From Sinorhizobium medicae (lineage in GTDB: Bacteria; Pseudomonadota; Alphaproteobacteria; Rhizobiales; Rhizobiaceae), in the NCBI RefSeq assembly GCF_007827695.1, contig NZ_VITA01000003.1, positions 1 to 64,000 on the forward strand: 64,000 nucleotides of DNA, read 5' to 3'. The notes below the pieces were generated by a model. That model was given only the letters and a program-made list of their open reading frames with translations. It ran no database searches and was not told the DNA's origin. The translations under genes and the position numbers were made by a program. Numbering within the stretch: the first letter of the stretch is position 1; the number at the start of each line of letters is the position of its first letter. Positions 21,517-34,028 of this stretch are shown one piece after another.

Positions 21517-22809
21517 CTAGCCGTTGTCCGGATCGATCGTGTCGATGAAACGTGAAATCCAATCCTCTCCTGCAACCGGTTCGCTGCCAGCCATCACCGC
21601 CACCGAGAAGCCTATCAGCGATGAAATGGCATTATGGGTCGTGATGCCGGCCCGCAGATTCATCACCAGCGTCGGGCAGAGAAAAAGGCCAAGCCGGATG
21701 ACCCGGCGCCAGTCGGCCGGGAGCATGCCTCGCGCCTTCAGTTCGCTAAGCAGCGGACGCCAAAGTGCCTCTGCCTTTACATCGAGAAGCGCCCGCCTGA
21801 CAGGACTCGGCGCGAAATCGGTGGTAACGCCAAGCAGAGTGCCATCAAGCACTGCGCTTGCCTTATAGCGCCCGGCCGCCATGGCGGGATCGTAGAGCCA
21901 AAGCGGATGGGCAAAGATGTTGTGAAAGGTCGTCTTCACCTCGGCCAGCAATGCAGGAATGTTTTCGCCGGCAAAGGCGGGATCGAAGAAGGACAAGTGT
22001 GCCCCGCCATCGCGCTCCTCGTACCAGACATTCGCATTGTGGGCGTCGCCATGCGCGACCACTCCCCCTGCATCCGCCAGCCGCGCGGGGTTCAGCCGCT
22101 CATGTGCGGCATCGAACAGGGCGCCGATACTGTCGCTGTATTCGATGCCGTTCACCACAAACCGGCAGCGCGAGAGCGTCTCCCAATCGAGTGTCAGGTT
22201 GGGAAAGGCAAAGTCCTTGCCGACATAGAAGCTTGCCATGCGCCCGCCCGGATAGCTTGCTGCCGAAGGGTCTACGAGCCTTTCGTAAAACAGACGGTGG
22301 ATCGGCTCGGCCGCAACCTCTCTCGCACCCACCGTATGCAGTGTGGCAAGATAGACCTTCAGCACGGCCTCGCTCAGTCGGCGTTCGGCCTCAACCGCCC
22401 TTCCCCTCGCCGCGGCATCGTCCTTCAAGTCTAATGCCCTCAGCACATCTGAAAAACGCGGATCGGTGCGTCGGCGATAGACGAGTATCTGTTCGCCAGG
22501 AAGCACCGACATCAGCAATGGCTGGTCCACCGGCAGGCCGGCGCGCGCCAGGATGTCGGCGCGATAATATTCGCCGCTCATGGCCTCTTCTCCCTCTTCC
22601 TGGTGGAACTTGAAGAAGAAGGCGCCGTCCTCCGTCTCGAAGAAGCCATTGAGCGAATTGAGGCTGTACTGGTCGTGATTGATCGCGACGTTCCTTGCCT
22701 CGATCCTGAAAAGATCACGCAGCAGCTCGGCCAGCAACTGTTCCGCCTTGCCGTCTCCGGCTTTGGCGATTTTTCTGATTTCCGCGGTGCGGCTCGTGGG
22801 CTGGCTCAT
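21517..22809 (-). CDS. APH/choline-kinase-type phosphotransferase
   Basis: A 430-residue kinase of the aminoglycoside phosphotransferase superfamily. The catalytic loop is VVAHGDAHNANVWYEE near residue 245 and the metal-binding motif FFDPAFAGEN lies about 20 residues later. It is much longer than drug-resistance enzymes and is the last gene of a catabolic operon, so its substrate is more likely an alcohol or amino-alcohol metabolite than an antibiotic. It starts 44 bases after the GntR gene. Confidence 0.8.
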   Translation of the reverse strand: MSQPTSRTAEIRKIAKAGDGKAEQLLAELLRDLFRIEARNVAINHDQYSLNSLNGFFETEDGAFFFKFHQEEGEEAMSGEYYRADILARAGLPVDQPLLMSVLPGEQILVYRRRTDPRFSDVLRALDLKDDAAARGRAVEAERRLSEAVLKVYLATLHTVGAREVAAEPIHRLFYERLVDPSAASYPGGRMASFYVGKDFAFPNLTLDWETLSRCRFVVNGIEYSDSIGALFDAAHERLNPARLADAGGVVAHGDAHNANVWYEERDGGAHLSFFDPAFAGENIPALLAEVKTTFHNIFAHPLWLYDPAMAAGRYKASAVLDGTLLGVTTDFAPSPVRRALLDVKAEALWRPLLSELKARGMLPADWRRVIRLGLFLCPTLVMNLRAGITTHNAISSLIGFSVAVMAGSEPVAGEDWISRFIDTIDPDNG

Positions 22810-22853
22810 GGCGTTCTTTCCGGAGGGCTTGTCCTGGGCACGGGGCTAGACAG

Positions 22854-23585
22854 TCACTTGCCGCCGTGCAGATAGCGGCTGCCGAGCGAATAACGGCTGC
22901 CGACATAGGTGAAGGTATTGACGGTTGCGACGACCGGTCCTGTCCAGGTCTTGCGGTGCAGGACCAGGCAGCAGTCGCCGGGGCGAATGTGCAGCAGACG
23001 AGCCTGGTCCGCGCCGGCCGGCAGAGCGCTGATGAGATGCTCCACCTCGGTCAGCGGCGTGGCGTTCTGCAGGTAGTCATAGGTGGCGACGGTAGTAAAA
23101 TCCTGGTCGGCATAGCCGGAAACGAGGTTGGGATTGACGAAACGTTCCTCAAGCTGAACCGGCAGGTCGTTCTCGAAATGAATGACGACGGAATGATCGA
23201 CGGGCTTCACCGTCTCGAATTCGAAGGCGAGCAGAAGCTCCGGTTCCGGTCGCGCGATCCGCTCGAGCACGACCACCTCGGCCCGGTGCCGGCTACCGCG
23301 CGTCTTGATCTCGGTAATGATGTTGCTGATCTCGATCAGCGTCGACCGGGGCCTGGGTGGCGCAACGAAGGTGCCCACCCCCTGAATGCGGCGCAGATGC
23401 CCCTCGGAGGTGAGTTCCCGCAGCGCCCGGTGAACGGTCATGCGCGAGACACCGAGTGCCGAAACGAGTTCGTTCTCCGAGGGAAGCCGGCTGTTGCGCG
23501 CCCATTTGCCGCTGCCTATGTTACCGAGGACAAAGTCCTTTACCTTCTCGTAGAGCGGCGATGCGGAATCTGAAAGCGTATTCAT
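22854..23585 (-). CDS. GntR-family regulator, HutC-like
   Basis: A 243-residue GntR/HutC-subfamily repressor. The winged helix is at residues 10-75 (SRLPSENELVSALGVSRMTVHRALREL) and is followed by a UTRA ligand domain. The UTRA part is close to histidine-utilisation repressors: VIHFENDLPVQLEERFVNPN, TPLTEVEHLISALP and CCLVLHRKTWTG. HutC proteins respond to urocanate-like ligands, so the inducer may be an imidazole or similar compound. Its probable operator is the TGTCTATACATAT motif seen twice upstream in the locus. Confidence 0.88.
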   Translation of the reverse strand: MNTLSDSASPLYEKVKDFVLGNIGSGKWARNSRLPSENELVSALGVSRMTVHRALRELTSEGHLRRIQGVGTFVAPPRPRSTLIEISNIITEIKTRGSRHRAEVVVLERIARPEPELLLAFEFETVKPVDHSVVIHFENDLPVQLEERFVNPNLVSGYADQDFTTVATYDYLQNATPLTEVEHLISALPAGADQARLLHIRPGDCCLVLHRKTWTGPVVATVNTFTYVGSRYSLGSRYLHGGK

Positions 23586-23647
23586 GGTTCACTGCCTCCA
23601 CCGCCGCCAAATCGGGCCGGCATTCGGAATGACATGACGGACCCGGT

Positions 23648-24661
23648 TCAGCCCGCCACCTCGATGATCGTCTTAAGCGCATTGCTTTCGCCTCGCAGCA
23701 GCCTTTCATAAGCTTCCGGCACATCGTCGAGCGTCGGCAGCACCTCAATGAAACGTTGCAGCGCCGGCGCCAGATTTGCGAGCAATTCGATGGCCTCGGG
23801 CAACTCGCCCGCAAACGCATGGCAGCCGACGAGCGATATCTCCCGCTCGACCAGAATGTTCGGGTCCAGATCGAGCTTACCGTGTCCGATGCCGACGAGC
23901 GCCAGCGCTCCGCCGCCAGACAGAATGTCGAGCGCCCTCGCGATCGCCTGGATACTGCCGGTCGCATCCAGCGCATGGCGCAGTCTTGCGCCGGGCAGCG
24001 CTTCCTCGATCGCCGCCCCGTCGAGTGCAACCACCACACCGCCGGTCACCTCGGCGACAAGGGCGGCCTTGTCGGCGTTCAAATCGGTCAGCAGCAACGG
24101 ACCCTGATGTAACCGGGAGAGCAGAAGGGCGCTCAACCCGCCGATCGTGCCGCAGCCCATGACGAGAACCGGTTCGCCGTCAGGCACGGCGAGCCGACGC
24201 ACGGCGTGCAACGCCACAGCCAGCGGTTCGGCCATGGCGGCCACATGCGGGGAAAGCTTGGGATCGTGGCGGAAGACCAGTCGCGCCGGCAGTTGCACCG
24301 CCTCGGCAAAGCCGCCGTCGCAGACCTCGCCCAAGAAGCCCAAAGTCTCGCAGACATTGCTGCGGCCGCTCGCGCAGGCCGGGCAGGTGCCACACCACAT
24401 CCGTGAATCCGCAGAGACGACGTCTCCCCGCAAAAGGTGGCTGACGCCCTCTCCGATTGCAGTCACGCGACCGCAGAATTCATGGCCTGCCGTCGAGGGC
24501 CGTCGCGAGATCCATTGGCCGGTACGGTAGTTGTGAAGGTCGGAACCGCAGATCCCGGCGGCCCTTACTTCAAGGTTGACGAAACCCGGCGGCGGCGCAG
24601 ACAATTCGGCCACCTCCTCCACGCGCAAGTCCCTGATGTCGTAGAGCTGCACCGCCTTCAT
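23648..24661 (-). CDS. zinc-dependent alcohol dehydrogenase (MDR family)
   Basis: A 337-residue medium-chain dehydrogenase. The catalytic zinc region is AAGICGSDLHNY near residue 35 with GHEFCG near 60. The structural zinc cysteines are WCGTCPACASGRSNVC and the NAD(P) site is VMGCGTIGG. It resembles sorbitol/threonine dehydrogenase-type enzymes acting on polyols or amino alcohols. It sits three bases after the HisD-like gene, so the two probably act in one oxidation route. Confidence 0.88.
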   Translation of the reverse strand: MKAVQLYDIRDLRVEEVAELSAPPPGFVNLEVRAAGICGSDLHNYRTGQWISRRPSTAGHEFCGRVTAIGEGVSHLLRGDVVSADSRMWCGTCPACASGRSNVCETLGFLGEVCDGGFAEAVQLPARLVFRHDPKLSPHVAAMAEPLAVALHAVRRLAVPDGEPVLVMGCGTIGGLSALLLSRLHQGPLLLTDLNADKAALVAEVTGGVVVALDGAAIEEALPGARLRHALDATGSIQAIARALDILSGGGALALVGIGHGKLDLDPNILVEREISLVGCHAFAGELPEAIELLANLAPALQRFIEVLPTLDDVPEAYERLLRGESNALKTIIEVAG

Positions 24662-24664
24662 GGT

Positions 24665-25993
24665 TCAGTCGCCGCGCTTCAGATAGGCGTCGCGCACCGG
24701 CGACACGGCAAGCGCATGCGAGGAGAAGCCCTCGTAGATCGCCAGATTGTGGGAATGTCTGGCGAATTCCGGATAGGCCGGTGCCGTGACATAGCCGATC
24801 GAACTGCGTTTGACGAAATCGGTGACTGACAGCGGGCCGAAGGTGCGGGCCCAGCGGCTGGTTGGCAATACGGCGTTGGGCCCGAGCGAGAAATTGGCGA
24901 TGCTGACCGGAGTATGGGTGCCCATCAGGATTTCGGCCGCTTCCGTGATGTGGCCGAGATGTATGAAGGGCTGCTCCGACAGAAGCTCCAGATGCTCGGG
25001 CGCATAGGCGTTGACGAAGGCGTAGCTTTCCTCGATCGAAGAGGTCAGAACGATGCCGCCCGTCTTCCCCGTCAACACGGCCTTTGAAAAGGCGACGCGC
25101 TGCTCGGTCATTTTCGCCCAATGTTCCGGAAGGGCCGCGAGCGCCTCCTCGGCGACGCGGCGGCTGTGGGTAACGAGGTAAGCGGAAGAATCCGGGCCAT
25201 GTTCGGCCTCGATCAGCAGGTCGAGCGCGGCAAGGCCACCATGGACCGTGTCGTCGGCGAGAATCATCACCTCGGACGGACCAGCGGGAAGCCCGGTATC
25301 AATGACGCCGGCGAGCGAGCGCTTGGCGGCGACCACCCAAGGGCTGCCGGGACCGACGATCTTCAGCGCCGGCTTGACCGTTTCGGTGCCATAGGCGACA
25401 GCAGCAACGGCCTGTGCGCCGCCCGCCTTGTAGACGGTTGCAACGCCGGCGAGACGTGCGGCAACAAGCGTCGCGGCATCGACCGAACCGTCCGGCGCCG
25501 GCGGCGTGACAATGGCCAGGTTCGGGACGCCTGCAACCACCGCCGGGACCGATGTCATCATGGTCACCGACGGGAAGGAGCCCTTGCCACGCGGTACGTA
25601 GAGCGCGACCGACTGAATGGGCGTGAAGCGGTCTCCGGCAAAGGCCCCGGGGCGAATTTCCTTCAGCCACATGGCTTCCGGCTTCTGCTCCTCATGGAAC
25701 TTGCGAATATTGTCGATGCCGAATTGAATGGATTCGACGACGCTCGCATCGACCAGCTTGAAGGCCGCGTCGAACTCTGCCGCCGTAACCTTGAGATTGG
25801 CTTCCGTGACATCGGCCTTGTCGAGTTCGCGGCCGAAGCGTGCCAGTGCCTTGTCGCCCTCGGTGCGGACCGCTTCGAGGATCGGCGCGACCTTTTCGAT
25901 GAAGCCCGATATGTCGGTTTCCGAACGGCGCAGCAAGGCGGCCTTCTCTTCGTCGTTCAGCTTCGAATATTCGTAGAAAGACACTGATGTCAT
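24665..25993 (-). CDS. HisD-like dehydrogenase with altered metal ligands
   Basis: A 442-residue member of the histidinol dehydrogenase superfamily (NAD-dependent alcohol to acid, two steps). Retained: GPGSPWVVAAKRSLAG, AGPSEVMILAD and the catalytic Glu-His of YAPEHLELL. Compared with E. coli HisD, the metal-ligand Gln of SQAEHGPD is Glu here (IEAEHGPD), and the ligand Asp of GDYASG is Asn (ANFSLGPNAVLPT). The distal His is kept (SSHALAV). This argues against a plain biosynthetic HisD. The sulfopropanediol dehydrogenase HpsN belongs to the same superfamily and is an alternative. The catabolic setting supports a degradative role. Confidence 0.85.
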   Translation of the reverse strand: MTSVSFYEYSKLNDEEKAALLRRSETDISGFIEKVAPILEAVRTEGDKALARFGRELDKADVTEANLKVTAAEFDAAFKLVDASVVESIQFGIDNIRKFHEEQKPEAMWLKEIRPGAFAGDRFTPIQSVALYVPRGKGSFPSVTMMTSVPAVVAGVPNLAIVTPPAPDGSVDAATLVAARLAGVATVYKAGGAQAVAAVAYGTETVKPALKIVGPGSPWVVAAKRSLAGVIDTGLPAGPSEVMILADDTVHGGLAALDLLIEAEHGPDSSAYLVTHSRRVAEEALAALPEHWAKMTEQRVAFSKAVLTGKTGGIVLTSSIEESYAFVNAYAPEHLELLSEQPFIHLGHITEAAEILMGTHTPVSIANFSLGPNAVLPTSRWARTFGPLSVTDFVKRSSIGYVTAPAYPEFARHSHNLAIYEGFSSHALAVSPVRDAYLKRGD

Positions 25994-26032
25994 CGTCTTG
26001 TCCTTGGTATCTGGCCCGTTGGGGCCGGAGGG

Positions 26033-26833
26033 TCATTTCGATTTCAGGAAAATATCCAGACCGACCAGGCGGTCGAGCAGCGCGATCGCAAGACCGGCGC
26101 AGGCGATGAACACCACCGAGATTGCGGCCAAGTCCGGCGTGATGATCGAGCGGATGGAATTGTAGATCTGGACCGGCAGCGTCACGCTTCGGGCGTCGAC
26201 CAGCAGCAGGCTGACCAGAAACTCGTTGAGCGCCAGAATGAACATCAGCAGCGATCCCGTGATCACGCCCGGCAGGACGGCCGGCAGCGTGATGTAGAGG
26301 AAGCGTTGCAGCGGCGGGGCTCCGCAATTGGCCGCCGCCAGCTCCAGATCGGGCGACAGGTTGCTGGCACTCGCCGTCACAGCCCAGATCATGAAGGGCA
26401 GGTTGATGACGGCGCAGGCGATCCCGACCGGCCACAATTTTCCCAGAACGCCCATATTGCCGAGTACCAGCATCATGCCGATGCCGGAACCGATCAGCGG
26501 AATGGTGAACGGCAACAAGAGATAGATCTGGATCGAACGGGCAAACCGCACCCGATACTTGGCCAATGCGATGCCTGCGAGCGTGCCGACCGGGATCGAG
26601 ACCAGGGTGCATATCGTGGCAACGATCAGCGAACGAACAAAAGCTTGCCTGAGGTCACTTGCCTGGGCGATCGCCCCATACCATTTCAGCGACAGGCCGT
26701 CCGGCGGGAAGGTGATGATGTTGCCGGCGGTGAAGGAGGCTCCGAGCACCACGACCGTGGGCGCGGACAGCATCAAAAGTGCAGTCGTGACGAAAGCCCA
26801 CAGGACGAAGGATTTGCTTTTGCTGCCCGTCAT
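26033..26833 (-). CDS. ABC transporter permease, polyamine/PotC type
   Basis: A 266-residue permease with about six membrane segments. The coupling loop is DLELAAANCGAPPLQRFLYITLP (EAA-type) near residue 150. It is the second permease of a spermidine/putrescine-type importer. The real start at 26833 overlaps the stop of the first permease by four bases; the long open frame upstream is only a shadow. Confidence 0.92.
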   Translation of the reverse strand: MTGSKSKSFVLWAFVTTALLMLSAPTVVVLGASFTAGNIITFPPDGLSLKWYGAIAQASDLRQAFVRSLIVATICTLVSIPVGTLAGIALAKYRVRFARSIQIYLLLPFTIPLIGSGIGMMLVLGNMGVLGKLWPVGIACAVINLPFMIWAVTASASNLSPDLELAAANCGAPPLQRFLYITLPAVLPGVITGSLLMFILALNEFLVSLLLVDARSVTLPVQIYNSIRSIITPDLAAISVVFIACAGLAIALLDRLVGLDIFLKSK

Positions 26834-27774
26834 TTGCGGTCTCCCGTCATGGCGAGCGTGCCTGCACCGAACAGCATGAAGACGACGCCGACGAGCATGG
26901 ACCCGACCGCGACGAGCATCAGCGACAGCGTGGCACCCATGCCCTGGTCGGAGGTGCGGAAGAACTGGTCGTATATCGCGTTGGCGATAAAATCCTGCGT
27001 GCCGCCGCCGAGGATGGCGGGAATGGCGAAGTCGGTGAGCGACAGCGTCAATACCACCAAACCGGCACCCACCAGCCCCGGCCGGGAGAGCGGCAGAACG
27101 ATGTGGCGGAATGTCCGGGTCCAGCCCGCGCCGAGCGAGGCGGCAGCGGACTCGAGTTCGCCCGGGATAGCGGTCAGAGCCGGTGCGAGCATCAGCACCG
27201 CGAAAGGCAGCATGTACTGGACAAGGCCGAAAAGGACCGCCGGGTAGTTGTAGAGCAGACGTATCGGCGGCACGCCGACGAGGCCGAGCGCCTCGTTGAC
27301 CATGCCCTGGTTGCCGAGAATGATGAGCCAGCCATAGGCGCGCACCACCTGCCCGATGAAGAAGGGCAGGAAAAGAGCAACCAGCAGAAATTTGCGAAGC
27401 GCGGACGACGGCGTACGCACCATGAGGTAGGCATATGGAAAAGCGAGCAGCAAGGTGATCACCGTCACGATCACCGAACCGACAAGGCTGCGGCCGGCAA
27501 CCGTCGCGAAGAAGCTTTCGGTCAGAACACGCTGATAATTGGCGAGCGTGTAGCTCTCCGACATCAGGAAGGTATTGGTGTCGAGCGTTCTCAGGCTCGT
27601 GTCGCCGATCTGGACGAGACCGAGCACCAAAAGGCCCACAAGCACGAGCGCGGGCATCAGCATGAGATAGGGCAGGCCCCGCTGGAAGCTCGATGGCCAG
27701 ACGATGGCCGCAAGGCGTTCGAGCACATCCATGACGCGCCACGTCAGGGGATATGCAGCACGGGGAGCGCGCAT
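26830..27774 (-). CDS. ABC transporter permease, polyamine/PotB type
   Basis: A 314-residue inner-membrane permease with the EAA-type loop PGELESAAASLGAGWTRTF near residue 205. The hydrophobic segments LMLMPALVLVGLLVLGLV and VTVITLLLAFPYAYLM are clear. It pairs with the permease at 26033. It follows the binding protein gene by 66 bases. Confidence 0.92.
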   Translation of the reverse strand: MRAPRAAYPLTWRVMDVLERLAAIVWPSSFQRGLPYLMLMPALVLVGLLVLGLVQIGDTSLRTLDTNTFLMSESYTLANYQRVLTESFFATVAGRSLVGSVIVTVITLLLAFPYAYLMVRTPSSALRKFLLVALFLPFFIGQVVRAYGWLIILGNQGMVNEALGLVGVPPIRLLYNYPAVLFGLVQYMLPFAVLMLAPALTAIPGELESAAASLGAGWTRTFRHIVLPLSRPGLVGAGLVVLTLSLTDFAIPAILGGGTQDFIANAIYDQFFRTSDQGMGATLSLMLVAVGSMLVGVVFMLFGAGTLAMTGDRK

Positions 27775-27840
27775 GGCAACGATCCTGTTTCACGAGAGAA
27801 GGCTGCCCGCCGCAAGGGGTGCGGTCGGGCAGATAAGGCA

Positions 27841-28956
27841 TCAGCCCTGCATGATTTCCTTGAACTTGGCGAACCACTGGCTCTCGTTCTCGACCTGTAC
27901 CTTGGCCGAGATACGGATCAGCTGCTTGAAGTCCTCTTCCGTTGTCGGATAGGAGGGATCGCCCACGAGATCGGCCGGCGGCGTGATGCCGGGGATGACG
28001 CCGGGCAAGCCGAGACCGTCCAGCCAGATCTGCTGCGCTTCCTTGGTCAGGGCGTGGTTGATATATTGCTTGGCCCAGTAAAGCTCGTTCTCGGGCAAAC
28101 CCTTCGGTATCCAAAGGCCGTCCGTGTCGAACTTGGCGCCTTCCTCTGGCACGACCCAGGCGATTTCGATGCCGTTCTTCTTGGCTTCCCTCGCATTGGT
28201 CGAGATGGTGCAGGCGGCGTCGATCTCGCCCTTCTGGAACCAGGTGGTAAAATCCGGGTCCTCGCCGAGCAACGGCTGCTGTTCCTTGATCTTCGAGATG
28301 AAATCCCAGGCCGGCTGCATGTTGCCCGGAATGTCCTCGAGCTTGCCGCCGCCGGCGACCTGCGCGGGGAAGTGGAAGCCGATCCCGTCGTTATACAGCG
28401 CGATCCGGCCCTTGAGCTTGGGGTCGAGCAGATCCTTCCAGGATTTTGGCGCGCCGTTCGGAAAGGCCGACGGGCGATAGGCGAGCACGTAGACATAACC
28501 GTAGGTGTTGACGATCGGATAGCCGTCGAGGCCGACCGGCTTTGCGAGATCGGTGGCGTTCTTGAGGTTCGGCAGGTCGGACAGGTCTTCGGTCACGCCG
28601 CGCAAAGCGGACTTGGTGGCGTTCGTCGTCGTATCCCAGTTGATGTGGATCGGCGGGACGCGCTTCTGGGCAACGGCGGCCCAGACCTTCGGCTGGATCT
28701 CATTGTCTTCGGTCAGGTCATGACGGACGGCAATGCCGGTGTTCTTGGTGAAGCTGTCGGATACGCCGGCCTTGAGCGCATCGACCCAGCTGCCGCCCCA
28801 GGCGCGAATGATGATCTCGGCCGGCTTTTCCGGCTCCTGGGCAAAGGCGCGGCTGACGCCGAGGGTCGAAAGACCCGCCGAAGCGCCGGCCGCGGCCATG
28901 GACGCAAGCAGCGTCCGGCGGCCGATCTGCGCGGACAGGAACTTTTCATGCGACAT
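27841..28956 (-). CDS. ABC substrate-binding protein, PotD type, TAT-exported
   Basis: A 371-residue periplasmic protein. The N-terminus carries a twin-arginine signal, IGRRTLLASMAAAG, ending near AFAQEPEK. The mature part begins IIIRAWGGSWVDALKAGV, as in spermidine/putrescine-type binding proteins. The ligand cannot be told from sequence. It is transcribed after the ATPase gene and before the permeases. Confidence 0.9.
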   Translation of the reverse strand: MSHEKFLSAQIGRRTLLASMAAAGASAGLSTLGVSRAFAQEPEKPAEIIIRAWGGSWVDALKAGVSDSFTKNTGIAVRHDLTEDNEIQPKVWAAVAQKRVPPIHINWDTTTNATKSALRGVTEDLSDLPNLKNATDLAKPVGLDGYPIVNTYGYVYVLAYRPSAFPNGAPKSWKDLLDPKLKGRIALYNDGIGFHFPAQVAGGGKLEDIPGNMQPAWDFISKIKEQQPLLGEDPDFTTWFQKGEIDAACTISTNAREAKKNGIEIAWVVPEEGAKFDTDGLWIPKGLPENELYWAKQYINHALTKEAQQIWLDGLGLPGVIPGITPPADLVGDPSYPTTEEDFKQLIRISAKVQVENESQWFAKFKEIMQG

Positions 28957-28989
28957 TATAGGTTCTCCTCTGGCTGGACCTTCTGGGGG

Positions 28990-30123
28990 TCACTTTTGAA
29001 AGACATGCATATCCCTTGCATTCCAGCCGAGACGAACCTCGTCGCCCGGACCGAACTGCAAGTGGGATTCCGGATCGTGATCGAAGACGCGCATCAGTAC
29101 GCCTGCCAGATCCGGAACACGGATCTCGTAGACGACTCGATCGCCTTCGAAAATGCAATCGACCACCTGGCCGTCCACCACCGTTTCCAGATCATCGAGC
29201 CGCCCGCCCCTGGGCGCAATGCGTATCTGTTCCGCACGAAGCGCTCCGCTGCAGGATAGACCTGCCGCAAGGGCGGCATCGGCAGCGATGCCGACGAGAC
29301 GTACACCGTTTGATTCAAACACGGCCTGCGTCGACGTAAGTTCGACGATCCTTCCTTCGAGAAAATTGGTCACGCCTATGAAGTTGGCTACGAAGGCGTT
29401 CGACGGCGCGCGATAGGCGTCGACCGGCCGGGCCTTCTGCTGGATGGCTCCGCCATTCATGACGATGATCTCGTCGGAAACCACCAGCGCTTCTCGCTGA
29501 TCGTGGGTGACGTTGATCGTGGTGACGCCGAGCTCTTTCTGGATGCGGCGGAACTCGAGCTGCATCTCCTCGCGCAGCTTGCGATCCAGCGCGGCAAGCG
29601 GTTCGTCGAGCAGCAGCAGATCGGGCTCGAACACCAGCGCCCTGGCAATGGCGACACGCTGCTGCTGGCCGCCCGACAACTCATTGATCCGTCGGTCTCC
29701 GTAGCCGCCAAGGCGCACGAGATCGAGATAGCGCTCGACCTTTTCCGGGATCGTGCGCGCGTCATGGCGGCGCATCTTGAGCGGAAAGGCGACGTTTTCG
29801 GCCGCCGTCATATGCGGAAAAAGCGCGAGCTTCTGAAACACCATACCGATGGCGCGCTTGTGCGGCGGCACGGCGCTGACCGGCTGGCCATTGATGAAGA
29901 TCTCTCCGCTGGTCGGCCGGTCGAAGCCGGCGATCATGCGCAGGAGAGTCGTCTTGCCGGAACCGGACGGGCCGAGAATGGTCAGGAACCGCCCCTGCGG
30001 CAGGTCGAAGGAGGCGTTCCTGACAGCATGAACATCGCCGAAAGCCATGCCGACATCCTTGACGGAAACAGCGACCTGATCGATGGATCCGGCCCGACGG
30101 ACATCGGCAGCAACAACGCCCAT
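28990..30123 (-). CDS. ABC transporter ATPase, PotA type
   Basis: A 377-residue ATPase. Walker A is GPSGSGKTTLLRMIAG, the signature is LSGGQQQRVAIARAL and Walker B is LLLLDEPLAALD. A C-terminal TOBE-type region follows. The start at 30123 is chosen because AGGGGA lies six bases ahead; a start at 30156 lacks a good site. It is the first gene of the long operon running to the kinase, downstream of the motif at 30223. Confidence 0.92.
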   Translation of the reverse strand: MGVVAADVRRAGSIDQVAVSVKDVGMAFGDVHAVRNASFDLPQGRFLTILGPSGSGKTTLLRMIAGFDRPTSGEIFINGQPVSAVPPHKRAIGMVFQKLALFPHMTAAENVAFPLKMRRHDARTIPEKVERYLDLVRLGGYGDRRINELSGGQQQRVAIARALVFEPDLLLLDEPLAALDRKLREEMQLEFRRIQKELGVTTINVTHDQREALVVSDEIIVMNGGAIQQKARPVDAYRAPSNAFVANFIGVTNFLEGRIVELTSTQAVFESNGVRLVGIAADAALAAGLSCSGALRAEQIRIAPRGGRLDDLETVVDGQVVDCIFEGDRVVYEIRVPDLAGVLMRVFDHDPESHLQFGPGDEVRLGWNARDMHVFQK

Positions 30124-30222
30124 GACATTCCCCTGTCTTGCTTCAACTATGGACAAAGCCGCAGCGAAGCTTCATTCTATCCATGCCCGCGTAAGGCGCT
30201 CGGCCGAGCATCTTCAACCAGT

Positions 30223-30235
30223 TGTCTATACATAT
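30223..30235. promoter_or_regulatory. probable GntR operator, copy 1
   Basis: TGTCTATACATAT, extended to TTGTCTATACATATTGATACAA, is an imperfect dyad 100 bp upstream of the ATPase start. The same 13 bases occur at 31245. Both precede units of the catabolic locus, so they are likely sites for the HutC-like regulator. Confidence 0.55.
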
Positions 30236-30426
30236 TGATACAAGTATCGTCAACCGAGTTTGCGTATTTTTTGCCCTTCAAAGCCACATGTCCATTTATT
30301 GTGCAAATGCGAACGCTCGAGCCGATGGCAATCTCGGCGGCAACGGGCAGAAAGACAAGCACGCAGAGCGGGTGCCTCGCGCCGCCTACACCAAAGACTG
30401 AATCATCTGCAACCCTCGTGCGAGGA

Positions 30427-31194
30427 TCAGATCGAGGCGAGATAGCCGCCGTCGACCGGAATGCAATGCCCCGTGACATAGGCCGCCGCATCGCTGCAGA
30501 GGAAAACCGCGACGCCGCCGATATCGCTTTCCTTGCCGAACCGCCGTTGCGGGATTTTCCCCAGCATCTGCTGTTGCCAGCCCTCGTCCTCGTAGAAGAC
30601 CTCCGTCATGGCAGTGCGGAAATAGCCGGGAGCGATTGCGTTGACGCGGATATTGTGCGCTGCCCATTCCGTTGCAAGTGCCCGTGTCACTCCAAGCAGG
30701 CCGGACTTCGAGGCGCCGTAGGGAACTGCCGTCGGAATGCCGACATAGGATGTCAGCGAGCAGAGATTGACGATCGCGCCGCCGTTCGCTTCCGCCATGA
30801 TCCGGCCTGCCGCCTGCGCACAGAAGAAGGCGCCTTTTAGATTGGTCGAGATGATCGTTTCCCAGAGCGCCTCGTCTACGTCGAAGGACGGTCTGACGTT
30901 CTCGAAGCCGGCATTGTTGACGAGAATGTCAAGCCCGCCCAAGCGCTCGGCCGCCGCTCCCGTCACACTTCCGCAAGCCCCGACATCGCGCACATCCTGG
31001 GCAAACGCCACCGCGCGCCTTCCGACCTTTTCGATCAAAACCCTGGTCTCTTCCAAGCCATCGATCGTTCGCGCCGTCACGGCCACGTCCGCCCCGGCCT
31101 CGGCCAGAGCCAAAGCGATAGACTGTCCAATGCCGCGGCTTGCTCCGGTGACGAGGGCGCGGCGGCCGGAAAGGTCGAAGATCGGGCGGGTCAT
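30427..31194 (-). CDS. short-chain dehydrogenase/reductase
   Basis: A 255-residue classical SDR. The cofactor site is TGASRGIGQS near residue 17 and NNAG follows near 90. The catalytic Ser is in VNLCSLTSY and YGASKSG holds the Tyr and Lys. It is complete and probably oxidises a hydroxyl group in the same pathway as the HisD-like enzyme. It is divergent from the aminotransferase gene across the second operator copy. Confidence 0.9.
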   Translation of the reverse strand: MTRPIFDLSGRRALVTGASRGIGQSIALALAEAGADVAVTARTIDGLEETRVLIEKVGRRAVAFAQDVRDVGACGSVTGAAAERLGGLDILVNNAGFENVRPSFDVDEALWETIISTNLKGAFFCAQAAGRIMAEANGGAIVNLCSLTSYVGIPTAVPYGASKSGLLGVTRALATEWAAHNIRVNAIAPGYFRTAMTEVFYEDEGWQQQMLGKIPQRRFGKESDIGGVAVFLCSDAAAYVTGHCIPVDGGYLASI

Positions 31195-31244
31195 GAAGGC
31201 TCCTTGTTCTGCTTCCCACCAATGACACCATCAATGAGACGACA

Positions 31245-31257
31245 TGTCTATACATAT
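31245..31257. promoter_or_regulatory. probable GntR operator, copy 2
   Basis: TGTCTATACATAT is followed by GTACA, so the centre includes the perfect palindrome TACATATGTA. It lies between the divergent SDR (start 31194) and aminotransferase (start 31316) genes and matches the motif at 30223 over 13 bases. Confidence 0.55.
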
Positions 31258-31315
31258 GTACAGATCATGAATCCCGGCTTATGAATATCAAATGGCACTC
31301 CATGGAGACGGCAAA

Positions 31316-32428
31316 ATGGCAGACCCTTCAAGCCCCATACGTGAGGAAATCCGTTCGATCGCTCCCTATAATGCCGGATTGACGCTCGAGGAGGTCCGGG
31401 CGAACCACCATGTCGAAAAAGTCGCTAAGCTCGGCTCCAACGAAAACCCGCTTGGCCCTTCGCCGGCCTTGCGCCGGCAATTTCCCGACATCGGCGAACT
31501 GGCCCGGCTTTATCCCGATCCGCAGGGCCGCGCCTTGTGCACCCGGCTGGCTGCCAGCTTCGATGTCGGGAGCGATCAGGTGATCCTCGGCAACGGCTCG
31601 GAAGATCTGATCGCCGTCATCTGCCGCTCGGTCGTTCGTCCCGGCGACACTGTGGCGACGCTCTATCCCTCCTTCCCCCTTCATGAAGACTACACGGCAC
31701 TGATGGGCGGAAAGGTCGATCGCGTGACCGTTGCGCCGGACCTCACCGTGGACACGAAGACCCTTCTCGCCGCGATCTCCCGAAAGCCGCGTATGCTGAT
31801 GTTCTCGAACCCGATGAACCCCGTCGGCTCATGGCTAACGCCGGACCAGCTGGCGCAGCTCATCGCTGGGCTCGATCCGGAAACACTCATCGTGGTCGAC
31901 GAGGCCTATGCGGAATATGCAGCCGGTGACGATTATCCAAGCGCGGCCGAAATGCTGAAGGCAACCGGCTTGAACTGGGTCGTACTGCGTACCTTCTCCA
32001 AGGCTTACGGTCTGGCGGGCCTCCGCATCGGTTACGGCATCGTCAGCGACGGCAGCCTATGCGGCTTTTTCAATCGTGCGCGCACTCCATTCAACACCAA
32101 TGCGATCGCCCAGGCAGCCGCCCTCACCGCCCTGGATGATGTCGGCCACCTGAACCGTTCCGTCGAGCTTGCTATTGTCGAGCGCGAACGGATGAAGAAA
32201 GAGCTAACGACGATGGGCTACCGGATTGCGCCTTCGAGATGCAATTTCCTGTTCATCGACGCGCGCACGGACGCAAGCGTCCTGGCCGGAGCGCTGCTCC
32301 GGCAGGGCGTAATTGTCAAACCCTGGAAACAACCTGGCTTCGAGACGTATATTCGCGTCAGTATCGGCTCGCCTGTGGAGAACGATCACTTCATCGAAGC
32401 GTTTCAAAAGGTCGAGGCGGCCGGGTGA
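31316..32428 (+). CDS. HisC-like class I/II aminotransferase
   Basis: A 370-residue PLP enzyme of the histidinol-phosphate aminotransferase group. Visible are KLGSNENPLGPSP, NPMNPVG, VVDEAYAEY and the PLP-lysine motif TFSKAYGLAGLRIGYG; the substrate-contacting VSIG lies near the C-terminus. The ATG at 31316 has GGAG ahead and gives the normal length; 31292 is also possible. Its position opposite the SDR and beside a HisD-like and HutC-like gene suggests catabolic amination of an imidazole or similar carbonyl compound. Confidence 0.88.
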   Translation: MADPSSPIREEIRSIAPYNAGLTLEEVRANHHVEKVAKLGSNENPLGPSPALRRQFPDIGELARLYPDPQGRALCTRLAASFDVGSDQVILGNGSEDLIAVICRSVVRPGDTVATLYPSFPLHEDYTALMGGKVDRVTVAPDLTVDTKTLLAAISRKPRMLMFSNPMNPVGSWLTPDQLAQLIAGLDPETLIVVDEAYAEYAAGDDYPSAAEMLKATGLNWVVLRTFSKAYGLAGLRIGYGIVSDGSLCGFFNRARTPFNTNAIAQAAALTALDDVGHLNRSVELAIVERERMKKELTTMGYRIAPSRCNFLFIDARTDASVLAGALLRQGVIVKPWKQPGFETYIRVSIGSPVENDHFIEAFQKVEAAG

Positions 32429-32470: not shown

Positions 32471-33931
32471 TCATGTGCGGCGCGCCTGCGGCCGTTCACC
32501 GGTATAGCGCAGGATCCAGATGCCTTGATTCTTATCGCTGATGTAGATGAAGCCACGACGATCGACGACGACATCTTCGGTCTGAAGAACTAACTTGTCC
32601 TCTGGCATTGGCCCGTAACGCCGTGTCGGCTCCGGCGGGATGAAATAGCCGACTTCGCGCGGGAGCCGCCTGTTGGATACGTCGTAGATGCGCAGTCCCG
32701 CATTGAAATGGGCGATGTAGAAGAGGTCGCCCTGTTTCTCGACATCTGGGTGATGCTGATGATGGTTGATGTTGTGTGGGCCCCGCCATCCGCCTCGTGT
32801 CGTGAAGTCGGAGTAAGGAGCCGCCGCCGGCGGAACAGGTTCCGGGAACAGCGAAAGCAGGAAGGGCGCGCTGGGATCCGATATGTCGACGATCGATGCA
32901 TGATGCGCGGCGCCCTGCCCGTAAGTGACGTTTTCCGAGTTCGCGAATGCGATGCCCTGGTCGGGCACCGGCAGAACGCCGTGCACACCGAAGCGGGAAT
33001 GAAACGGGGGACTAAAGCTCAGCCCGCCGATCTGCCGCGGCTGCGATACATCGCTTATGTCGAGCACGATCATGCCAGCTGCGCCGTAGGGCAGATATAC
33101 GTGGTTTCCCGTGACATAGGCCGGCCCATGCAGTGAGACGTCCTCGCCGGCGCCGGAGCAGAACGCGCCGCACATGCATTGCGCTTGAAAACGCATCGGT
33201 TCCGCTCGTCTCCTCGAATGTGAGGCATTCGTTGGCAGAGCATCGAAGAAACTCTCGCCGCCGGCCTCGTGCTGCCCCGGCACCCACCAGCGTCCCGCTT
33301 CACGCGGATTGGCACGGTCTGAAATATCGAGGATGAGATAGATGTTGCCGCGATAACCCGGCATGGACGCCGCTACATGCACATAGCGACCTCCCGGATA
33401 TAAGTTGCGATGGGTGCCGTTTGCACCGGTCTTGAAATGCGACAACAGTTGCGGGCTGAGCGGGTCTGCAATGTCCCAAATGAGAAGTCCTTCGTCGAAA
33501 GGAGCATTTGGATCCCCGCCGAAGTTGGCGAACGGCTTTTCCAGAGCGGTCACCATCGTGTCGCCCGACAGATCAACCTGCAGCGTCCACGTATTGGGCG
33601 TGGGATAAGCAACAAACTTGGCAACCCGCGGCTTGGCAGGATCGGTCACATCGACGATGCTCCAACCTGCATCCCAGAAGTGCCCCGTGTAGAGATACCA
33701 CCAGCCCTTCACCTCGCGTATCGCCATCTTGAAGGCTGGACGATGTTCCATGTCGGTGTAGCCGACCGCTTCCACATTGTGCGCAAAGGCTCCCGCGGGA
33801 GCTGGTGAGTGCGACCGCTGTGGCTGCGCGATGGCTTCGCAGAGGAGACCGGATTGTGAAGCTGCGACAGCGGTCGCGCCTATAAGGGGTGCCTTCAGCA
33901 TCTGCCGCCGCGAGATTTTCTGATCGCTCAT
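32471..33931 (-). CDS. TAT-exported LVIVD-repeat protein
   Basis: A 486-residue protein. The N-terminus has a twin-arginine signal (ISRRQMLKAPLIGATAVAAS). The rest shows repeated beta-propeller units with the LVIVD pattern: WSIVDVTDPAKPRVAKF, LLIWDIADPLSPQLLSHF, YLILDISDRANPREAG, MIVLDISDVSQPRQIG, ASIVDISDPSAPFLL, and LRIYDVSNRRLPREVG. A CxCxxxC (QCMCGAFC) interrupts the repeats. No enzyme activity is known. The ATG at 33931 has AGGAGG ahead. Divergent from a LysR gene. Confidence 0.85.
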   Translation of the reverse strand: MSDQKISRRQMLKAPLIGATAVAASQSGLLCEAIAQPQRSHSPAPAGAFAHNVEAVGYTDMEHRPAFKMAIREVKGWWYLYTGHFWDAGWSIVDVTDPAKPRVAKFVAYPTPNTWTLQVDLSGDTMVTALEKPFANFGGDPNAPFDEGLLIWDIADPLSPQLLSHFKTGANGTHRNLYPGGRYVHVAASMPGYRGNIYLILDISDRANPREAGRWWVPGQHEAGGESFFDALPTNASHSRRRAEPMRFQAQCMCGAFCSGAGEDVSLHGPAYVTGNHVYLPYGAAGMIVLDISDVSQPRQIGGLSFSPPFHSRFGVHGVLPVPDQGIAFANSENVTYGQGAAHHASIVDISDPSAPFLLSLFPEPVPPAAAPYSDFTTRGGWRGPHNINHHQHHPDVEKQGDLFYIAHFNAGLRIYDVSNRRLPREVGYFIPPEPTRRYGPMPEDKLVLQTEDVVVDRRGFIYISDKNQGIWILRYTGERPQARRT

Positions 33932-34028
33932 GTGACCTCCTGCAAAACACGTTTGCGCAGGGTGATGGAGGAGATATATTCCGTCCAATATTGTTTTTTT
34001 CGTCTGTGATATCGAAATGGAAATTTGA

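Follow-up and report, generated by a model that had tools for sequence, protein, structure and literature searches.

A HisD-like gene cluster of Sinorhizobium medicae as a probable accessory branch of the hut regulon for imidazole-containing alcohols

We analyzed a stretch of 64,000 nucleotides from Sinorhizobium medicae (RefSeq assembly GCF_007827695.1, contig NZ_VITA01000003.1, positions 1 to 64,000; hereafter the window), in which an intact cluster of ten genes at positions 21517-32428 encodes a HisD-like dehydrogenase, a HisC-like aminotransferase, a short-chain dehydrogenase (SDR), a zinc-type alcohol dehydrogenase (ADH), a four-gene ABC importer, a GntR regulator of the HutC type, and an APH-superfamily kinase. 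The cluster probably belongs to the HutC/hut regulon as an accessory branch, which would import an imidazole-containing primary alcohol and convert it to histidine for degradation by the hut operon located elsewhere in the genome. A preliminary description of this DNA had listed histidinol or another imidazole alcohol among several possible substrates, and this option gains support from HutC-type operators, from hut neighbors in related loci, and from the membership of the HisD-like enzyme in a clade that probably contains histidinol dehydrogenases.

HutC-type operators in the cluster and its relatives

The GntR/UTRA regulator (22854..23585, minus strand) scored 258.9 bits against the HutC model TIGR02018 (cut-off 220), which bears out its earlier placement close to histidine-utilization repressors, and is one of three proteins in the genome above that cut-off. 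The palindrome TGTMTAKACA has five sites in the 6.53-Mb genome, two of which are in the cluster. These two predicted HutC-type operators have the sequence TGTCTATACA; one (30223..30232) lies upstream of the ATPase gene, and the other (31245..31254) lies in the gap from which the SDR and HisC-like genes diverge, where it would serve both sides. A third genomic site, TGTATATACA, directly precedes hutI of the hut operon, and the TGTCTATACA variant also precedes hutI in some relatives.

The same placement recurs across related loci, where 121 sites were found in 141 loci (2.77 Mb). Counted within 260 bp upstream and without dereplication, the motif preceded the SDR gene in 53/110 loci, the HisC-like gene in 20/27, and the ATPase gene in 25/60 (letter-shuffle expectation at most 0.1), as well as the HisD-like gene in 17/127 and the kinase gene in 4/70 (expectation at most 0.15). 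It was not found before the genes for alpha-hydroxy-acid oxidase (0/26), GntR (0/71), ADH (0/101), or the SsuA-type binding protein (0/48). In 19 of the 21 hut-bearing loci it preceded hutI, and in four loci (L040, L041, L044, and L145) a single operator lies between divergent hutI and SDR genes.

Elsewhere in the genome, a site before an SBP_bac_5 (peptide-type) importer gene (L188 around 3561; G000:C14:82560) is near a GntR/FCD regulator gene and may mark a further regulon member or a chance match. The gene for a further HutC-type regulator encoded in this genome (L185; G000:C7:266000-280500) has on one side genes for HutF and an OpuAC-type importer protein and on the other a frame combining APH and class-III aminotransferase domains, an arrangement that recalls hydroxylysine-type kinase/phospho-lyase pairs.

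hut genes in the neighborhood of related loci

To describe the relatives, we used a named set consisting of the best 80 of 578 relatives (590 matching stretches), a close subset in which all members are at least 76% identical, and a wider set of 117 loci, which was reduced to 87 by dereplication at 97% HisD identity, 72 of them SDR-linked. The 117-locus counts exclude loci shorter than 17 kb as well as L076 and L160, which repeat one plasmid.

hut genes were found within about 10 kb in 21/141 loci, and in 15/87 after dereplication, counts that depend on unequal locus lengths. The hut-linked loci show about eight arrangements by manual count. In 3/8 f14 loci, the HisD-like gene closes the row of hut genes, with a formate/nitrite-type transporter gene between them in L072, and one genome with this arrangement (G013) has no other HisD homologue. 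The regulator gene of the cluster was absent in 11/12 SDR-linked loci with hut neighbors versus 19/60 others (p=1.5e-4). At the level of whole genomes, among 397 genomes of the order, urocanase was present in 63/66 genomes with the HisD-like protein versus 145/331 without it (p=1.3e-16).

A HisD clade with an altered zinc site

The HisD-like dehydrogenase (24665..25993, minus strand) matched PF00815 with 444.9 bits and TIGR00069 with 415.8 bits (cut-off 243.8), and the HisC-like aminotransferase (31292..32428, plus strand), which faces the shared operator and is of the SMa0387 hisC3 type, passed both NF003496 (644.5 bits, cut-off 540) and TIGR01141 (293.4 bits, cut-off 276.55); the homologies proposed earlier for both proteins thus stand. 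Against the PDB, the HisD-like protein matched HisD first (7e-77) and HpsN, a dehydrogenase of dihydroxypropane sulfonate (DHPS), after it (4e-51). The genome encodes four PF00815 proteins, namely a classical HisD (L001), L002, L003, and the protein of the cluster. Although the best PDB matches of L002 and L003 were DHPS dehydrogenases, both lack the His of HpsN at position 140, and the argument that they already supply HpsN to this genome was dropped; the rest of the genome thus yielded no certain HpsN.

In a maximum-likelihood tree of 65 rows, the HisD-like protein fell within a clade of 50 rows, separated with 100/100 support from the 15 others, which comprise six HisD-proper and nine HpsN-related rows (Lys at 368). 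The zinc-ligand positions 262 and 367 carry Glu and Asn in 50/50 clade rows and Gln and Asp in 15/15 others, and position 135 carries Arg (with Lys137) in 50/50 clade rows and Gly in 15/15 others. The catalytic Glu333/His334 pair is present in all 65 rows, and the zinc-ligand His265 and His426 are retained in the HisD-like enzyme. Because its zinc-ligand positions thus carry Glu262, His265, Asn367, and His426 instead of the classical Gln/His/Asp/His, we treat this E/N clade as a distinct branch of the superfamily and not as classical HisD. In HpsN, the matching residues Gln248 and Asp352 bind zinc, the D352A variant is inactive, and the active-site His126 and Lys353 contact the sulfonate (PMC11382572). 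Neither sulfonate contact occurs in the 50 clade rows, which have Phe at 140 and Phe or Tyr at 368. In the HpsN-related group, Lys is present at 368 in 9/9 rows and His at 140 in 4/9.

Among 31 genomes picked by hand, a clade member was the sole PF00815 protein in 11, comprising 7/16 of a first set (G013, G129, G068, G186, G433, G459, and G480) and 4/15 of a second (G384, G228, G308, and G104). A HisB domain, that is, imidazoleglycerol-phosphate dehydratase (IGPD), was detected in 10/10 genomes tested, including seven of the 11, with a weak match in the three genomes of the f90 group. In three f90 loci (L192, L193, and L195), a HAD-IGPD protein is encoded 3-6 kb from the HisD-like gene; at the same distance, L192 and L193 have a class I aminotransferase by Pfam and L195 a HisC-like tblastn match. 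In the Firmicute Monoglobus, a clade HisD gene is followed by IGPD and then a HAD hydrolase. With no HisD homologue besides a clade member in 11 of these genomes, the clade probably contains true histidinol dehydrogenases, which would be the source of the catabolic copies. The only HisD copy of G384 (L060) is itself linked to an SDR and an importer.

An E/N-clade HisD that is apparently sole and presumably biosynthetic occurs in several alphaproteobacteria and in another proteobacterial group, as seen at L191-L193, L195, L068-L074, and L077 (e.g. L077:9001-11934). A change of His374 to Ala was considered as a marker of catabolic copies and rejected, since Ala was present in 5/19 clade rows without an SDR link and His in 3/31 SDR-linked rows. 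The Rhizobium leguminosarum "hisD" pRL80041 was likewise discarded as a lead, the hisD on NC_008383.1 (147 kb, taken as that plasmid) being only 33.7% identical.

A conserved module with exchangeable importers

The most constant partner of the HisD-like gene is the SDR. Of the named loci above 20 kb, 68/68 have a homologue within 10.5 kb, as do 108/125 loci overall, an association that exceeds chance. Within the same distance, the 68 named loci also contained homologues of ADH (60), GntR (49), the kinase (38), the HisC-like protein (16), alpha-hydroxy-acid oxidase (11), and an AspC/TyrB-type aminotransferase (4). ADH was present in 59 of the 72 SDR-linked dereplicated loci.

The importer, by comparison, is exchanged between loci. 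A PotD-type binding protein was found in 39 of the 68 named loci and an SsuA-type one in 26, with both in none and neither in three; in the 72 dereplicated loci, the corresponding counts were 40, 26, 0, and 6, assigned by identity cut-offs and taken from the PotD/SsuA table, as the separate importer tally stops before L162. The SsuA-type binding protein scored close to, yet under, the sulfonate subfamily cut-off. In L056 and L057, a second ABC importer lies 3' of the kinase gene, with an ATPase and two permeases that are 27-42% identical to those of the cluster.

The optional enzymes are associated with one another. An aminotransferase was present in 17/39 loci with the kinase versus 2/33 without it (p=3e-4), and in 10/16 loci with alpha-hydroxy-acid oxidase versus 9/56 without it (p=6e-4), and the kinase tends to co-occur with the HisC-like protein (p=0.0036). 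The oxidase gene follows the kinase gene in S. meliloti ml47 and Shinella. Two Klebsiella plasmids (L160; L161:5248-16288) carry a compact version of the module with genes for a GhrA-like dehydrogenase, alpha-hydroxy-acid oxidase, an SsuA-type importer, the HisD-like enzyme, the kinase, ADH, and SDR. On one of these plasmids, the module is near transposase, recombinase, and arsenic-resistance genes.

Gene content and genomic setting

All genes named in the preliminary description proved to be open reading frames at the positions given there. Nine of the ten are on the minus strand, in the transcribed order SDR, ATPase, binding protein, two permeases, HisD-like, ADH, GntR, and kinase, and the HisC-like gene is divergent on the plus strand. 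Intergenic gaps on the minus strand range from -4 to 66 bp, except for 303 bp between the SDR and ATPase genes, where a second promoter is likely. No sigma-54 promoter was found in the two upstream regions using one loose pattern.

The SDR (30427..31194, minus strand) matched PF13561/PF00106 and the ADH, of the MDR type (23648..24661, minus strand), PF08240/PF00107. The importer had been described as being of the polyamine type. The ATPase (28990..30123, minus strand) scored just over the cut-off of the polyamine subfamily model TIGR01187 (360.4 bits against 355.6) when a longer frame with a TTG start at 30156 was used, while the SBP_bac_8 binding protein (27841..28956, minus strand), which is related to PotD and to agropine/mannopine binding proteins, reached no NCBIfam cut-off and scored 24.9 bits against the PotD cut-off of 582. 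Permease 1 (26830..27774, minus strand; PF00528) is PotB-like and under the cut-off of the PotB model. Permease 2 (26033..26833, minus strand) is an open frame starting with MTGSK that overlaps permease 1 by 4 bp, and its homologue adjoins the HisD-like gene in many relatives.

The kinase (430 aa; 21517..22809, minus strand) had been described as APH-type, which agrees with its predicted fold, although its Pfam APH score of 19.4 bits is under the cut-off of 23.2; it had no NCBIfam match at E 0.001. Its residues K67, HGDAHNAN (D255, N260), and D276 are invariant across 17 aligned rows. In a comparison of its AlphaFold model (pLDDT 90.6) with the PDB, the best matches were methylthioribose kinase and APHs, with TM scores of at most 0.45 of query length among the 50 matches listed, which suggests a fold of the broad APH/methylthioribose-kinase class without a close solved relative.

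The statement that no hut genes are present is true of the window, in which tblastn queries with HutU, HutG, HutI, and HutH found none; however, a single hut operon is present on a different contig of this genome. An alpha-hydroxy-acid oxidase gene is likewise not in this window. The cluster is flanked by a gene for an LVIVD-repeat protein (32471-33988), divergent from a LysR gene, and none of the 141 related loci gave an LVIVD match.

In the 12 matches listed, positions 21517-32428 shared 99.0-99.7% identity with plasmids of S. medicae, and at least 80% of the stretch was present in 58 of 122 matching plasmid records. The cluster is placed on a Sinorhizobium symbiosis plasmid and, by gene names and order, is the counterpart of SMa0387 (hisC3) to SMa0402 on S. 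meliloti pSymA, an equivalence that rests on names, order, and plasmid and not on direct comparison with strain 1021. In that numbering, SMa0391/0392/0394/0396 are the importer, SMa0398 is hisD2, and SMa0402 is the GntR regulator (PMC2912261). From its position, SMa0389 would be the SDR. A tolC mutant of S. meliloti showed an 8- to 23-fold fall for hisC3 (11.4-fold), hisD2, SMa0402, and four importer genes, and ntrBC, nitrate genes, and hutUGH were also down in the same table (PMC2912261). SMa0392 is a validated target of the AbcR1/2 sRNAs (PMC8844928) and was placed among possible polyamine transporters (PMC3484140); SMa0391 is also listed, as is a predicted PhaR motif assigned to hisD2 (PMC12542648). 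No substrate for the cluster was found in searches of open-licence literature, in agreement with the earlier statement that none had been assigned.

Proposed pathway and alternative explanations

We propose that the substrate, L-histidinol or one of its hydroxy or keto analogues (for example imidazolyl-propanediol or imidazole acetol), would be taken up through the ABC importer. The HisD-like enzyme, judging from its clade, would use NAD to oxidize the terminal -CH2OH to -COOH, and SDR and ADH may interconvert alcohol and ketone at C2, as HpsO and HpsP do on DHPS. The resulting hydroxy acid, imidazole-lactate, could then pass through imidazole-pyruvate to histidine by the HisC-like enzyme, or in relatives by an AspC/TyrB-like aminotransferase and alpha-hydroxy-acid oxidase. 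The hut operon would degrade histidine through urocanate to glutamate and ammonia. By analogy with HutC, the repressor would bind TGTMTAKACA operators, govern both halves, and be released by urocanate, and the kinase possibly phosphorylates imidazole acetol for use by the HisC-like enzyme.

For L-histidinol alone, the set of genes, with its SDR, ADH, and kinase plus an alpha-hydroxy-acid oxidase in relatives, appears larger than necessary. L-histidinol would be the minimal substrate; hydroxy or keto analogues besides it are suggested by an SDR that is nearly constant and by an oxidase, an aminotransferase, and a kinase that are optional. A more specific version, which we put forward tentatively and hold to be rather less than an even bet, is a previously undescribed, partly mobile (Klebsiella plasmids), HutC-controlled route that would break down an imidazole diol or keto-alcohol such as imidazolyl-propanediol, imidazole acetol, or imidazole glycerol, in which a zinc-swapped HisD recruited from biosynthesis would lead to imidazole-lactate and the kinase and HisC-like enzyme would provide salvage via histidinol phosphate.

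Several points weigh against an accessory hut branch for imidazole alcohols. No hut gene is present in the stretch compared for 72/87 dereplicated loci, only 8/80 loci of the named closest set have one, and relatives at 50-60% identity are mostly not hut-linked. Regarding the operators, TGTMTAKACA was picked after seeing this window, and the five genomic sites are unremarkable in number, since a control with the pattern reversed yields five per strand as well, and placement is what counts; the two sites outside the cluster and the hut operon precede the SBP_bac_5 importer gene and an arabinofuranosidase-type gene, and 57/110 SDR genes have no upstream motif. TGTCTATACA is one base off the Pseudomonas HutC consensus TGTA-N2-TACA (PMC12977541), of which no exact copy occurs in the window. 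General nitrogen control would account for the tolC data just as well as HutC control. Our Fisher tests take no account of shared ancestry, the genomes examined for a sole HisD were chosen by the analyst, and the most constant partner is an SDR, an enzyme that L-histidinol alone would not require.

Among other explanations, the cluster could serve a non-imidazole amino or aromatic alcohol, with HutC-type control shared as a nitrogen-source module or through the HutC descent of the regulator. The enzyme families are not imidazole-specific, an AspC/TyrB-type aminotransferase can occupy the same neighborhood, the cluster genes fell together with many nitrogen genes in the tolC mutant, and the regulator, 70% identical to its L095 counterpart, shares only 28-33% identity with HutC-like regulators from six other hut-bearing loci. 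Nevertheless, hut neighbors occur in several lineages, operators are shared, and several genomes with a HisB domain have a clade member as their sole HisD homologue, and we regard this explanation as unlikely. A second set for histidine biosynthesis or salvage, serving growth and not catabolism, would account for the HisD-like and HisC-like families, and the clade appears biosynthetic in other genomes, including G384, where SDR and importer genes adjoin it; however, a classical HisD is encoded in this genome as well, and HutC-type operators in common with hut, together with an importer, point to catabolism, which makes such a role quite improbable.

The preliminary description had also considered a sulfonate, in which case the HisD-like protein would be HpsN and the SDR and ADH would be HpsO and HpsP. 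The DHPS-2-oxidoreductases of the hps cluster are of the SDR/ADH type. That cluster pairs HpsN with two of them (PMC11382572), an SsuA-type importer with a near-threshold sulfonate score accompanies 26/72 SDR-linked loci, and no certain HpsN turned up in the rest of the genome, L002 and L003 lacking its His at position 140 although they are nearest to it in the PDB. The PDB ranking of HisD above HpsN, the position outside the nine-row HpsN-related group, and the lack of both His140 and Lys368 (0/50 clade rows) speak against it, and we give this option very little weight. An operon for uptake of a plain polyamine, beside unrelated oxidoreductases, draws on the ATPase score, the PotD-like binding protein, and the grouping of SMa0392 with possible polyamine transporters (PMC3484140). 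Yet the PotD score is far under its cut-off, no known polyamine-degrading enzyme is among the Pfam families of the cluster, and SsuA-type importers stand beside the same enzymes elsewhere, the two types never occurring together in the 72 loci. Because the SsuA type replaces the Pot type in 26 of these loci, a plain polyamine is an unlikely substrate, and we see hardly any room for such an operon.

If the cluster is an accessory hut branch, a substrate class could be assigned to a rhizobial locus annotated so far as "unknown ABC transporter" or "histidine metabolism" (hisD2, hisC3), and annotations that count hisD2 and hisC3 as histidine biosynthesis would be corrected. The analysis also brings out a HisD clade whose zinc site is altered. 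On the proposed interpretation, imidazole alcohols would be a nitrogen source for root bacteria, which raises the question of their origin in the rhizosphere.

Comparison with known systems

The closest known system is the hut/HutC regulon (HutH, HutU, HutI, and HutG, with HutC), with which the cluster shares a near-identical operator and a HutC-family regulator, and whose genes adjoin it in some relatives; the cluster differs in lacking hut enzymes and in adding what would be upstream alcohol-oxidizing steps. In the available text of a Proteobacteria regulon survey, no histidinol branch is named, and "histidinol" has no match in the main text (PMC5343134). Compared with HisD (EC 1.1.1.23), the enzyme of the cluster has the same family, catalytic Glu333/His334, and two zinc-ligand His positions, whereas Glu and Asn replace the zinc-ligand Gln and Asp, Arg135 replaces Gly, and the setting appears catabolic. 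The hps cluster (HpsN, an R-DHPS 3-dehydrogenase, with HpsO and HpsP) likewise places a HisD-family enzyme beside two alcohol dehydrogenases, but here the sulfonate-binding His/Lys pair is missing, the clade is separate, and the operators are of the HutC type. For the imidazolyl-lactate route of Pseudomonas, which Coote and Hassall are said to have traced through imidazolylpyruvate and a transaminase, we know of no HisD-like step or comparable gene set; a route of this kind would explain why alpha-hydroxy-acid oxidase and an aminotransferase accompany the module, feeding histidine.

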